Source of the DNA: a virus
Strand: one strand, 5' to 3'
Length of the DNA: 64,000 bases
Virus record (IMG/VR): IMGVR_UViG_3300031688_000009
Coordinates: 1 to 64,000 of that record
Shown: piece after piece, positions 26,093 to 30,597 of the stretch
Numbering within the stretch: position 1 is the first letter of the stretch
Layout of the letters: each line of letters opens with the position of its first letter
Translations under genes and position numbers: made by a program
The notes under the pieces: model-generated
What the model was told of the DNA's origin: nothing
What the model saw: only the letters and a program-made list of their open reading frames with translations
Databases searched by the model: none

Positions 26093-26944
26093 ATGAAAAA
26101 AGTTTTATTAGAAGAAAACATTAAAAGATTGATGGAAATTATGAACGTCGAAGTAACCGAAGGGTTTGACGACGAAGGTAATCCTGATTTTAAATACTAT
26201 GCTTTTGATTGGGATGATAACATTATGTTTATGCCGACGGAAATTATGGTATCTACTTTTGGTGACCAAGAAATAGGTATGGGTACGGCTGATTTCGCCG
26301 AGTATAGAAGTAAAATAGGAAAAGAAAACTTTGACTTTAAGGGTCATACTATTACTGGATTCGCTAAGGAACCATTTATTAATTTTGGACCTGAGGGTAA
26401 TGAACAATTCGTTAAGGATTCTTTAGTTGCGAAAACAGGACCATCATGGGATGATTTCGTAGAATGTATTAATGGAGGTTCAATCTTCTCAATTATAACC
26501 GCAAGGGGACATAACCCTGAGTCACTAAGAGACGGAGTAGAGGAGATAGTTAAGGCTGGTAAGGCGGGACTATCGTTCGAATCGTGTGTTAGTTCATTAA
26601 AAAAATATAAGGGAGTAATAGAAGGAGATAACGAACAAATGTTCCGAGAATATTTAGATATGTGTGAGTTCCACCCTGTATCTTTCGGTAAAGGTAGTGC
26701 TGCTAATCCTGAAAAGGATAAGATTATCGCTTTAGACGGATTTATTAAACACGTTAATAAATTATCTGACGAATTAAAGATGACAATGGAATTGGAAAAT
26801 GATATCCATAATAACTTTGTACCGAAGATAGGTTTTTCAGATGATGATAAGGCTAACGTAGATAACGTGAAGCAATATTTAGATGACAAAGGAGATGATA
26901 GTGTTAATGTATATTACACTAAAGACAATAAAGTAAAAATGTAG
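26093..26944 (+). CDS. HAD-family phosphatase, possibly virion-packaged
   Basis: 283 residues with an intact HAD catalytic set: motif I YAFDWDDN (Asp39, Asp41), motif II SIITARGHN (Thr136), motif III lysine in NPEKDKIIALDG (about 205), and motif IV GFSDDDKAN (Asp250-252). A helical cap is inserted between motifs I and II. Unlike the HAD-like gene at 4014-4601, nothing essential is missing. Substrate unknown; nucleotides, nucleic-acid 3' phosphates and sugars are all possible. It begins MKKVLLEENIKRLMEIM, resembling the (L/I)xE head-targeting leaders of neighbouring proteins. It lies between sheath and tube genes, an unusual place for an enzyme. It could be read through from the sheath promoter. 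Confidence 0.8.
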   Translation: MKKVLLEENIKRLMEIMNVEVTEGFDDEGNPDFKYYAFDWDDNIMFMPTEIMVSTFGDQEIGMGTADFAEYRSKIGKENFDFKGHTITGFAKEPFINFGPEGNEQFVKDSLVAKTGPSWDDFVECINGGSIFSIITARGHNPESLRDGVEEIVKAGKAGLSFESCVSSLKKYKGVIEGDNEQMFREYLDMCEFHPVSFGKGSAANPEKDKIIALDGFIKHVNKLSDELKMTMELENDIHNNFVPKIGFSDDDKANVDNVKQYLDDKGDDSVNVYYTKDNKVKM

Positions 26945-27143: not shown

Positions 27144-27632
27144 ATGGCTGATTTATTAATGAAAATGCCTGTTCCATACGAACCAAAGAAAAAGAACAGG
27201 TTTATTTTAAGATTCCCGTCTTCGTTAGGTATTAACGAATGGTACGTAAGTACAACCGCAAGACCCTCAGCGAATATTGGGGCAGTAGAGATTCCTTTCT
27301 TAAATACTTCAACATTTGTTGCTGGTAGATTCAATTGGAATACTCTTAACGTGACGTTTAAAGACCCAATCGGTCCTTCAGCTGCACAAGCACTAATGGA
27401 GTGGTTTAGATTACACGCGGAGTCTGTTACAGGTAGAATGGGATACGCAGCAGGATACAAAAAGGATATCGAATTAGATATGTTAGACCCAACAGGGGTT
27501 GTTGTAGAAAAATGGATAATCCAAGGAACGTTCATTACTGACTTAAACTTTAACGACCTTTCTTATTCAGACGAAGGTTTAGCTGACATTTCAGTTACGC
27601 TTAGACCTGATAGATGTATTTTAGTTTATTAA
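27144..27632 (+). CDS. Tail tube protein (gp19-like)
   Basis: 162 residues, almost the same length as T4 gp19 (163). The N-terminus MADLLMKMPVPYEPKKKNRF and RFPSSLGINEWYVSTTARPS, then the central NWNTLNVTFKDPIGPSAAQA and EWFRLH block, and the C-terminal DISVTLRPDRCILVY follow the gp19/Hcp-like tube fold. Stacked hexamers of this protein line the contractile sheath and carry the DNA. A late-type box lies upstream and a strong terminator downstream, giving a single-gene unit suited to its high copy number. Confidence 0.92.
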   Translation: MADLLMKMPVPYEPKKKNRFILRFPSSLGINEWYVSTTARPSANIGAVEIPFLNTSTFVAGRFNWNTLNVTFKDPIGPSAAQALMEWFRLHAESVTGRMGYAAGYKKDIELDMLDPTGVVVEKWIIQGTFITDLNFNDLSYSDEGLADISVTLRPDRCILVY

Positions 27633-27660: not shown

Positions 27661-27688
27661 AAAGCCCACTTAATTGTGGGCTTTTTTT
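27661..27688 (+). terminator. Terminator after tail tube gene
   Basis: A perfect 9-bp stem (AAAGCCCAC/GTGGGCTTT) with a 6-nt loop TTAATT is followed by a T run. Confidence 0.9.
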
Positions 27689-27739: not shown

Positions 27740-28486
27740 ATGAACGATGATAATTATAGAATGGAAATTGCGTTTGACGTAATACCACTACCGTCAGAAG
27801 GAGTGTTTTACGCGAATAAAAAAGATTCTATTAAGGTTTCTTACTTAACTGCGACTGATGAGAACATCTTAACGTCACAAAACTTAATTAAGTCTGGTAA
27901 GGTCATTGATGAGTTATTACGGGCTAAAATCTTAGATAAGGATATTACAGTGGAAGAATTACACGAGTCAGATAAAGAAGCTATCTTACTATGGTTAAGA
28001 AATACGGCCTACGGTTCTATGATTACGCTAGTGGTGACCGACCCTGATACTTCGGAACAGGTTGAGGTCGAATATGACTTACAAAACGTGAAATACAAAA
28101 AACTAACTATTAGTTCAGATTCGGAAGGGTTGTTCGAATATAAATTATCAAGTGGTAAGGATATTAAATTCCGTTTTTTAAATACTAAAGACCTTGAAGA
28201 GTTAAACCAAATGGACGACCTCTATAAAGATATGGTTATCAAGCCGACAATTACTAAACGATTGGAAAAAATGATAATAGATGTTGACGGAGAGAGGGAC
28301 CCGATGAAATTATCACACATAATTCAATTCCTACCTATTAAAGATTCACAACACTTCAGACGATTTGTGTCTGATAATACTCCAGGTCTTAACAAGGAGG
28401 TAGAGTTAATTCTACCTTCAGGAAAAAAAATACAGACGTTTTTTGGGTTTGGACCAGAGTTTTTTCGTCCTTTCTACGGACTATAA
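27740..28486 (+). CDS. T4 gp26-like baseplate/tail assembly protein
   Basis: 248 residues. The pattern PLPSEGVFYANKKDSIKVSY, ATDENILTSQNLIKSGKVID, ILDKDITVEELHESDKEAIL, then WLRNTAYG matches the T4 baseplate-hub family typified by gp26 (early P-x-G-x-x-Y, then DE-x-xLT and a D-xx-xLLxxxRxxxYG block). T4 gp26 takes part in hub assembly. It sits between the tube and tape-measure genes, exactly where long-tailed phages keep their tail assembly chaperones. The last 15 codons overlap an ORF in another frame (28443-28652). Two in-frame TTT TTT pairs near the end are possible slippage sites. Confidence 0.75.
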   Translation: MNDDNYRMEIAFDVIPLPSEGVFYANKKDSIKVSYLTATDENILTSQNLIKSGKVIDELLRAKILDKDITVEELHESDKEAILLWLRNTAYGSMITLVVTDPDTSEQVEVEYDLQNVKYKKLTISSDSEGLFEYKLSSGKDIKFRFLNTKDLEELNQMDDLYKDMVIKPTITKRLEKMIIDVDGERDPMKLSHIIQFLPIKDSQHFRRFVSDNTPGLNKEVELILPSGKKIQTFFGFGPEFFRPFYGL

Positions 28487-28652
28487 AGCAGTACAATTAC
28501 AGGAAACTTATTATATGGCAAAGTATCTAAATTTTTCTTATTTAGATATTATGTCTATGCCTGTATTTGAGCGAAAATTTTTACTCAATATGTTAGTCGA
28601 GGAAAAGCAAAAAGAGACGGACGGATGGGAAAATAGTAAAAAGGCTAACTAA
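28443..28652 (+). CDS. gp51-like small ORF, probably made by frameshift from the gp26-like gene
   Basis: This frame is open from 28410 to 28652. The only good initiation codons are TTG at 28443 and ATG at 28515. Its sequence (TDYKAVQLQETYYMAKYLNF followed by SYLDIMSMPVFERKFLLNML) is continuous with the family pattern of an aromatic helix, then a D-x-x-xMPxxER-x-x-L helix found at the C-terminus of related proteins. Conserved-looking residues begin before the ATG, which argues against internal initiation there. The frame is +1 (equivalently -2) relative to 27740-28486. A +1 slip at TTT TTT C (28460-28466) would give a 303-residue fusion. Confidence 0.6.
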   Translation: MGLDQSFFVLSTDYKAVQLQETYYMAKYLNFSYLDIMSMPVFERKFLLNMLVEEKQKETDGWENSKKAN

Positions 28653-28719: not shown

Positions 28720-30597
28720 ATGAGTAAACTAAGCGACATCCAAAAAAAAGTTAGTAATGGAAAGGTTCTAACCAACGCGGAAACCATTTACATGATGGAG
28801 GAACTGCAAAAAAAGTCAGGTAAAACATTGAAGGATAGTGGTGATGGTTATGGTTCTATAGTTAATAAGTTAGGGGATGCGAATAGCTCTACATTGAAAT
28901 GGAATAAAAATCTGGGGAATGTTGCGGATACCGTATTAAAGTTAACTAACATTCTTTCAAATGTGGATTTAACTTTTATTCAAAAAACAACACAATCCCT
29001 TAAACTTGCGATGGAGGAGATAATCCAACCGATTATGAATATCGACCAAGCGTTGAGATATGAGATTAATTCCAAGATGGGGATTACGGGGGAATTAGCT
29101 CGTAATATTAGGTCTGAAATGGTCGGAGTAGCCAAGGACACTATGGTTTATGGTGTGGGGTTGGAGGATATAAACTCTACTTATATAAAAACTATTTCCA
29201 CGTTAGGTAGAGCAATACCATTATCTAAAGGGTTGTTAACCGATTTAACATTATCTGCGAAGGCTGCTGGGGTTTCTTTTGAAGCTGCTGGTGAATTCAC
29301 GGGTAATTTAGAAGGATTGGGTATTGGGTTGGTAAAGGGTCCTAAAATTTTAACCGATATGAGTGAAACGGCTAGGAGTATGGGACTTAACAGTATGTCG
29401 TTCATTGAGGACGCAACCAAAAACTTACAATTAGTAAATACTCTCGGGTTTAAAGGGGGTATTGATGGATTCACAAAAATAGCTGCGAAAGCATCATTAA
29501 TTAAATTTGATTTATCATTGGCGGCGTCTAAGGCGGAGAGTTTGTTTGACCCTGAAAATGCGATTGAAATGGCGGCACAACTTAACGTTTTGGGTGGTGA
29601 TTTTGGTAGGTTGGGTAATGCTATTGACCTTATGTTTATGCCGACAAATGATATGAATGGGTTTACGGAGCAAATAATGGAGGCTCAAAAACAGTTTGTA
29701 TCGTTTAACGAGTCAACACAAGAGTTTGAGTCGTCACCCTTAGATTTAAGGAGAGCTCGAGAGTTCGCTAAGGTGATGGGTAAAGACGTCGGAGTAGTGA
29801 TGAAGGAAGCTAAATCCGCAGCACGTAGAGACATGATAAAGGATAAGATATCTTTTATGCCTAATATGTCTGAGGAAGATAGAGAATTAGTTGCTTCGTT
29901 AGGGGTTTTAAGTACCGACGGTCAGGTGACTATTAACGGACAAGCGATTGCGAGTATGGATAATGATGAACTTACCAAATCTATCAGTATGTTAAGACAG
30001 GAAGATAAGAACGGTAAGATGAGTCAAATAGATATATTAAGAGAGCAGATGAACATATCGACTGCGGCGAATAACTACTTAAAAAGTATTGCATTTAATA
30101 TGGGAGCATTTGGTGATGACGGGGGGTTATTTACTCTATTTGGGGATGACTTAAATGATTTAGTCTATAATATGACCGATAAGACTGGTGACGTATTTAA
30201 ATCCCTTTCTAAATCTATTGAAAACCAAGATGTTAAAGGTATTATGACCATTCTATCGTCTAATGCTGGTCTTGAAAACGAGTCACTTGGACCATTAAGG
30301 GATTTTATGTCTAAGATAACGATACCACTCGAACAGATGGGAATAAATGTTAAGGACATTTGGGGTTCAAAAGTCGCGGGTAAAGAAGATGGAGCGGTGA
30401 CTAAATTAAAATCTCAGGAGAATGAGATGAGGATTCGGAATGAGGAGAAAAGTAATACTCCAGTCCAACTAACGGTTAATAACTCATTTAACGGTAAGGT
30501 TCAGAGTAGTGACCTTTTGAAGTCTCAGACGGATGGGGTTAAGAAAAGGATTTTTGATTTGTCGAGTAATATACCATACACCTATGAGAGAGAATAA
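28720..30597 (+). CDS. Tail tape measure protein (gp29-like)
   Basis: 625 residues, close to T4 gp29 (590). It is largely helical, with long Ala/Gly/Leu-rich segments such as LTLSAKAAGVSFEAAGEFTG and LKLTNILSNVDLTFIQKTTQ. A short beta-rich C-terminus follows (TPVQLTVNNSFNGKVQSSDL), ending near the Tyr-rich tail IPYTYERE. Position directly after the chaperone-like pair and before the hub/baseplate genes fits a tape measure. Tape length sets tail length, so a tail of about T4 size is expected. No peptidase or transmembrane motif is evident. A late-type box precedes it. Confidence 0.75.
   Translation: MSKLSDIQKKVSNGKVLTNAETIYMMEELQKKSGKTLKDSGDGYGSIVNKLGDANSSTLKWNKNLGNVADTVLKLTNILSNVDLTFIQKTTQSLKLAMEEIIQPIMNIDQALRYEINSKMGITGELARNIRSEMVGVAKDTMVYGVGLEDINSTYIKTISTLGRAIPLSKGLLTDLTLSAKAAGVSFEAAGEFTGNLEGLGIGLVKGPKILTDMSETARSMGLNSMSFIEDATKNLQLVNTLGFKGGIDGFTKIAAKASLIKFDLSLAASKAESLFDPENAIEMAAQLNVLGGDFGRLGNAIDLMFMPTNDMNGFTEQIMEAQKQFVSFNESTQEFESSPLDLRRAREFAKVMGKDVGVVMKEAKSAARRDMIKDKISFMPNMSEEDRELVASLGVLSTDGQVTINGQAIASMDNDELTKSISMLRQEDKNGKMSQIDILREQMNISTAANNYLKSIAFNMGAFGDDGGLFTLFGDDLNDLVYNMTDKTGDVFKSLSKSIENQDVKGIMTILSSNAGLENESLGPLRDFMSKITIPLEQMGINVKDIWGSKVAGKEDGAVTKLKSQENEMRIRNEEKSNTPVQLTVNNSFNGKVQSSDLLKSQTDGVKKRIFDLSSNIPYTYERE

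Follow-up and report, generated by a model that had tools for sequence, protein, structure and literature searches.

The window, by which we mean the whole stretch of DNA that was analysed, comprises 64 kb out of a 66,453-base virus record. Its tail cluster includes, all on the plus strand, a T4-type tail tube protein gene (27144..27632; phrog_4542, E=8.7e-26), a gp26-like ORF of 248 aa (27740..28486; C-terminus ..PEFFRPFYGL*) that matches phrog_150 and the Pfam family T4_baseplate, and a 625-aa ORF (28720..30597). We designate the gp26-like ORF TAC-N, the putative short form of a tail assembly chaperone (TAC). The 625-aa ORF gave no PHROG or Pfam match and is a candidate tape measure gene by its position; Flavobacterium phage immuto has the same gene order, with a tape measure annotated at the matching place. 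The order of tube, chaperone and tape measure genes proposed earlier from the sequence alone (the sequence-only reading) was thus borne out, by profile match for the tube gene and by position for the tape measure gene. Between the tube and TAC genes lies a terminator-like hairpin (27661..27684, plus strand; 9-bp stem, -14.9 kcal/mol, z -4.9, T tail), and in Bacillus phage SP-15 the equivalent place carries a terminator by annotation. A 283-aa ORF between the sheath and tube genes (26093-26944) had no PHROG match. No tRNA or tmRNA gene was found in positions 1-64000, so that the phage seems not to bring its own tRNA-Arg in that stretch.

The gp26-like frame ends with a TAA codon at 28484..28486 and is overlapped by a second, +1 frame on the same strand, which is open from 28410, directly after a stop codon at 28407-28409, to 28652. 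The sequence-only reading had given exactly these coordinates, and had pointed out two T6 runs in the first frame, TTT TTT GGG (T run at 28439..28444) and TTT TTT CGT (28460..28468), both of which are in frame as described. At the second of these, the codons that would occupy the ribosomal E, P and A sites are TTT (28460-28462), TTT (28463-28465) and CGT (28466-28468), and a +1 slip from the P-site TTT would bring tRNA-Phe onto TTC (28464-28466). The +1 frame after such a shift encodes TAC-C (28467..28652; VLSTDYK...ENSKKAN*, 61 aa), a domain resembling the C-terminal part of T4 gp51. The first ATG of this frame is located at 28515..28517, after its conserved part has begun, and has an AGGAAA sequence at 28501-28506; we judged it incidental.

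Conservation of the overlap in relatives

A search of IMG/VR with the gp26 part retrieved 80 loci (8 with a single-sequence query), and a second search with the TAC-C domain alone, blind to both the site and the gp26 part, also retrieved 80 loci, which partly overlap the first set. Both sets were pooled and thinned to 64 non-redundant loci less than 95% identical to each other, without any use of the shift site in fetching. The gp26-fetched loci (57 distinct sequences) have the two-frame layout throughout. Likewise, in 80 of the 80 loci fetched with TAC-C, the domain occupies the +1 frame relative to an ORF of about 250 aa that precedes it; this ORF ends in FFRPFYG, with its stop 11 nt into the TAC-C domain, and in none of the 80 was TAC-C fused in frame or free-standing. 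The tree, which takes in 34 members of the window group under about 75% identity, shows that divergence within this group is deep. Among annotated phage records we found no relatives by DNA, and the GTDB genomes yielded one weak relative, in a Bacteroidales MAG.

The consensus of the site in the 64 non-redundant relatives is GAR TTT TTT CGN CCN TTC TAC GG, where counts are not to be read as probabilities, as the relatives share descent. The P-site codon is TTT in all 64, against a background TTT share of 76%, and the base that follows it is always C (64/64). The A-site codon is CGC in 33 loci, CGT in 30 and CGA in one, and these are among the rarest arginine codons on offer: in the same genes the background is AGA 387, AGG 46, CGA 36, CGT 14, CGG 5 and CGC 3, which leaves CGN with 58 of 491 arginine codons (12%). 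In the window ORFs, CGC accounts for 0/189 and CGT for 13/189 arginine codons; rarity here is as counted in phage genes. Other upstream TTT codons in the relatives' genes are followed by CGN in one of 662 cases. Within the nine window ORFs (6,220 codons), TTTTTTCGN occurs in frame once, and in-frame TTTCGN is found only at 28463. In each of the 64 relatives the end of the first frame has an in-frame UUU followed by CGN, with the second frame in +1.

On these counts the site is conserved far more than chance would give. Conservation of CGN and of some flanking positions could reflect translation of both frames across the overlap, and because the overlap may be so translated, selection for a rare codon is not cleanly separated from dual coding. 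The sequence-only reading had proposed an alignment of relatives that would reveal whether the T6 runs and the frames are kept and whether the two parts are ever fused. As described, no fusion was seen, and TTY TTT CGN and the frames are kept in 64/64, with a full T6 in 61/64. The first T6 run at 28439, which the same reading had regarded as a second possible slip site, is missing in most relatives and not conserved beyond the closest ones, and we judged it not to be the shift site.

The second frame and the joined product

Coding in the second frame was assessed on the 19 codons right after the frame-0 stop, a stretch that in many relatives precedes the first usable start codon, using 28 independent pairs of sequences. 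In the +1 frame the pN/pS ratio comes to 0.15, compared with 1.18 and 1.68 in the remaining frames. Only in the +1 frame, then, does TAC-C show strong purifying selection.

The short form matches phrog_150 with E=2.7e-12 and 47.7 bits over profile positions 20-212, and Pfam T4_baseplate with 35.3 bits (cut-off 24.5). Joining the frames by a +1 step at TTTC gives a product of 303 aa (P0001), of which residues 18-289 match positions 20-280 of the 282 in phrog_150, and the score rises from 47.7 to 57.8 bits. In T4, gp51 is a single ORF that spans 3-281 of this profile and gp26 covers only 10-236; the T4 genes for the short and long forms lie on opposite strands. The joined product thus spans a gp51-length profile and T4 gp26 only the short part, so that T4 would have two genes where the window phage has one. 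Joining in +1 accordingly appears to restore a full-length protein of the T4 gp26/gp51 family, matching it from end to end. The earlier label of the second part as gp51-like holds for the C-terminal domain of T4 gp51 only, as the N-terminal part of gp51 is itself gp26-like.

The AlphaFold model of the short form (pLDDT 89.8) resembles T4-type gp26/baseplate hub proteins, with a structure match to gp26 of Aeromonas phage 25 (E 2.8e-5). A helix that begins at residue 239 is cut short within the frame-0 tail, where the confidence of the model is low, and in the long form it may run on into TAC-C. The PDB fold search with the short form gave nothing significant; a solved tail assembly chaperone, that of HK97 (2ob9), is in the Foldseek list with E 3.9 and probability 0.16. 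The PDB sequence search returned Rab matches only, at chance level.

Proposed mechanism and alternatives

The reading that we favour, with a probability of roughly 93%, is that a single gene here yields two tail assembly chaperone products, the longer of which would be made by a +1 slip at TTT TTT CGT. Most ribosomes would stop at 28486 and release TAC-N of 248 aa. In a minority, decoding would stall at the seldom-used arginine codon CGU in the A site while tRNA-Phe sits on UUU (28463-28465) in the P site; this tRNA-Phe would then re-pair one base downstream on UUC, and translation in the +1 frame would run to 28652 to yield TAC-NC of 303 aa. If lambda gpG/gpGT is taken as the model, the two forms would probably act as a chaperone whose N part coats the tape measure protein, while tube subunits are recruited by its C part. 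What supports this reading directly is that the site is conserved, that the +1 frame is coding and that the joined product is homologous to the single-ORF T4 protein; these findings also lend strong support to the earlier proposal of a programmed frameshift that joins a gp26-like to a gp51-like part. The occurrence of slippage and its efficiency we infer from sequence, and slow decoding of CGN would be its presumed driver.

Candidate stimulators of the slip were also considered. In 40 relatives, the 70-nt segment downstream of the site had a mean z of +0.33 against shuffles and gave no sign of an RNA structure there, which is in keeping with many +1 sites. A 4-bp GUCC/GGAC hairpin at the A-site codon of the window was rejected, with about half of the relatives having C opposite A. 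Stimulation by a Shine-Dalgarno sequence was rejected as well: the GGGG in question ends 8 nt before the P codon, which is not the prfB spacing, and it is missing in the window, where the A site is CGT. In relatives outside the window clade, GGG serves as the glycine codon that lies 12 to 9 nt ahead of the P codon in 59 of 62 cases (background 18%), and it is this GGG that gives rise to the GGGG.

The sequence-only reading had offered either a +1 or a -2 slip. In a -2 shift at the T6 run, of the kind known in phage Mu (PMC5009743), the P-site tRNA-Phe would slip back two bases into the same frame, with one extra phenylalanine in the product, and T6 permits perfect re-pairing in the window and in 61 of the 64 relatives. 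The other three relatives, however, read TTC TTT CGN, as does Streptococcus phage vB_SagM-GXN1 (TTC TTT CGT); here a -2 slip would place tRNA-Phe on UCU with a mismatch at the middle base, whereas the +1 pairing stays perfect. The uncultured phage LR756508 reads AAC TTT CTA, where -2 from TTT leads to ACU and only +1 fits. Thus -2 re-pairing is not possible in all members, and the invariant C after TTT is required by +1 and not by -2. We regard the -2 slip as improbable, and of the two proposals it is the +1 slip at TTT TTT C that stood.

The frames could also be joined in the mRNA, if slippage of the polymerase on the T run made transcripts one base shorter or two bases longer. This possibility, which we hold to be even less probable, would suit the conservation of T6 runs and the T7 run in a sister group described below, but the run is only T3 in the TTCTTTCGN and TTTCTTTGG members, where the gene layout is unchanged, and the conservation of the C and of CGN would be left unexplained.

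If the second frame had a start of its own, used for example by ribosomes that re-initiate past the 28486 stop, the ATG at 28515 could serve; in the window it follows the frame-0 stop at a distance of 29 nt and has a Shine-Dalgarno-like AGGAAA upstream. This ATG is lost in two relatives 76% and 70% identical to the window (L004 and L010) and in the remaining relatives, and the purifying selection described above sets in right after the frame-0 stop. The conserved +1-frame region begins at the FF codons, ahead of any ATG, as the sequence-only reading had noticed. Moreover, 15 of the 64 relatives have a +1-frame stop no more than 12 nt upstream of the P codon (GTAGAG TTT TTT), and 10 of the 64 have no ATG, GTG or TTG before the conserved core. 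In those relatives the frame is therefore entered between the upstream stop and the frame-0 stop, an obligatory stretch of about 30 nt that contains the conserved site. All this makes separate initiation very improbable.

Least probable of all, and close to negligible, are two overlapping genes without fusion or a sequencing or assembly error in one fused gene: the parts are listed as separate ORFs in public annotation, but the arrangement recurs in window-group loci from two independent queries, contigs of three other metagenomes (L001-L003) carry the window's own sequence with both frames kept, which settles the check on sequencing error proposed earlier, and in one locus of the sister group (L345) a change of frame is paired with a switch of slippery sequence.

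Shift sites in other phages and comparison with known systems

The predicted +1 site has counterparts in a sister group (group C, L289-L368) of 68 non-redundant loci, in which TAC-C again lies in the +1 frame and the site reads TTT TTT TGG (56 loci), TTT TTT TAC (8 loci) or variants. Two cultured phages, Microcystis phage Mel-JY01 (UUU_UGG) and Flavobacterium phage immuto (CTT_T at the shift-site position, CUU_UGG), fall in this group on the tree. Both are publicly annotated with TAC-C detached, as a hypothetical protein in its own right, and the layout described here supplies an annotation rule for this missing half of the gene. In L345 (3190-3236) the T run is lost (TTC TTC TGG), TAC-C lies in the -1 frame, and a canonical -1 heptamer, A_AAT_TTC, is in frame just upstream; it looks as though a -1 site has taken the place of a +1 site. 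Among more distant phages, the +1 frame is found in RM378 (TTT_TGG), SP-15 (TTT_CAC) and LIS04 (TTT TTT AGT), and the -1 frame in Stenotrophomonas phage RAS14 (T_TTT_TTT), LR756511 (T_TTT_TTC) and Prochlorococcus phage P-SSM2 (T_TTT_TTC). When the tree is labelled with +1, -1 and separate, a minimum of five changes is required; its long outer branches are insecurely placed.

Altogether, well over a hundred diverse relatives appear to use a +1 skip of the TTT TTT CGN type for the long chaperone. We lean slightly towards a broader proposal, in which UUU_CGN would be a general +1 recoding signal on bacterial ribosomes, and much of the T4-type phages, mostly uncultured, would use UUU_CGN or UUU_UGG for the tail chaperone over very deep divergence, with neighbours switched to -1 heptamers or to two genes. 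If this is true, the balance between short and long chaperone would be governed by how well the tRNA-Arg that reads CGN is charged or supplied. The sites form a natural series (UUU_CGN, UUU_UGG, UUU_UAC, CUU_UGG, and the -1 heptamers of L345, P-SSM2 and RAS14), and thus a data set on why bacterial ribosomes slip forward, slip backward or stay.

Among the closest known systems is gpG/gpGT of lambda. The gene lies, as in the window, between the tail tube and tape measure genes, and the short and long forms share their N part. In contrast, the window site is predicted to act by a +1 P-site slip on UUU_C and not by a tandem -1 slip on a heptamer, and the window proteins belong to the T4 gp26 family. 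The lambda frameshift is reportedly -1 (Levin 1993, Xu 2004).

The T4 proteins belong to the same family as those of the window, with gp26 corresponding to the short form and gp51 spanning the long form in phrog_150, but T4 has two separate genes on opposite strands and the window one gene with a predicted frameshift. The tail chaperone genes of T4-like phages are said to have been named by Vladimirov, Gautam and Davidson (2022, Virology 566:9-15), with 26 and 51 as the T4 pair; some T4-like groups reportedly keep frameshifting. The sequence-only reading had called a frameshift at this place in T4-type phages unusual, which needs qualifying, since the T4-type cyanophage P-SSM2 has the same overlap with a -1 site. 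At its gp26 locus the short ORF ends in SFFV* and overlaps the TAC-C frame at a T6C run, but T_TTT_TTC is in frame and predicts -1, unlike the +1 of the window. GAGTTTTTTCGT is common to P-SSM2 (L377:2160-2260) and the window (28457-28468), with zero frames one apart; the P-SSM2 overlap fits -1 at T_TTT_TTC, and its entry and exit frames are swapped relative to the window.

A further parallel is prfB (RF2), whose autoregulatory +1 frameshift also combines a P-site slip with a slow A-site codon; immuto even has CTT_T at the shift position.

Frameshifting of tail chaperones is classical and may go -1, -2 or +1, and at a low level it has been described as widely conserved 'except T4' (PMC5009743). 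The same review lists +1 events in structural genes of tailed viruses, namely in Listeria phage PSA, where it is the capsid and tail-shaft genes, and not a chaperone gene, that shift, on a proline codon, and, very likely, in the archaeal virus HSTV-2, which belongs to another virus group (PMC5009743). What appears to be new here, judging from sequence comparison and with no claim of priority for the group, is +1 at UUU_CGN in T4-type phages, the UUU_UGG sister group and the relatives switched to -1. The motif itself, UUU in the P site followed by C and a CGN arginine codon in the A site, is familiar from eukaryotic viruses with unrelated genes: at UCC_UUU_CGU of influenza A PA-X, +1 frameshifting was shown by peptide, with an efficiency of about 1-2% in reticulocyte lysate (PMC3498833), and UUU_CGN is a proposed +1 site in amalgaviruses (PMC5052127). 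A large T4-type group thus carries a predicted +1 chaperone frameshift at a motif that had been reported from eukaryotic viruses.
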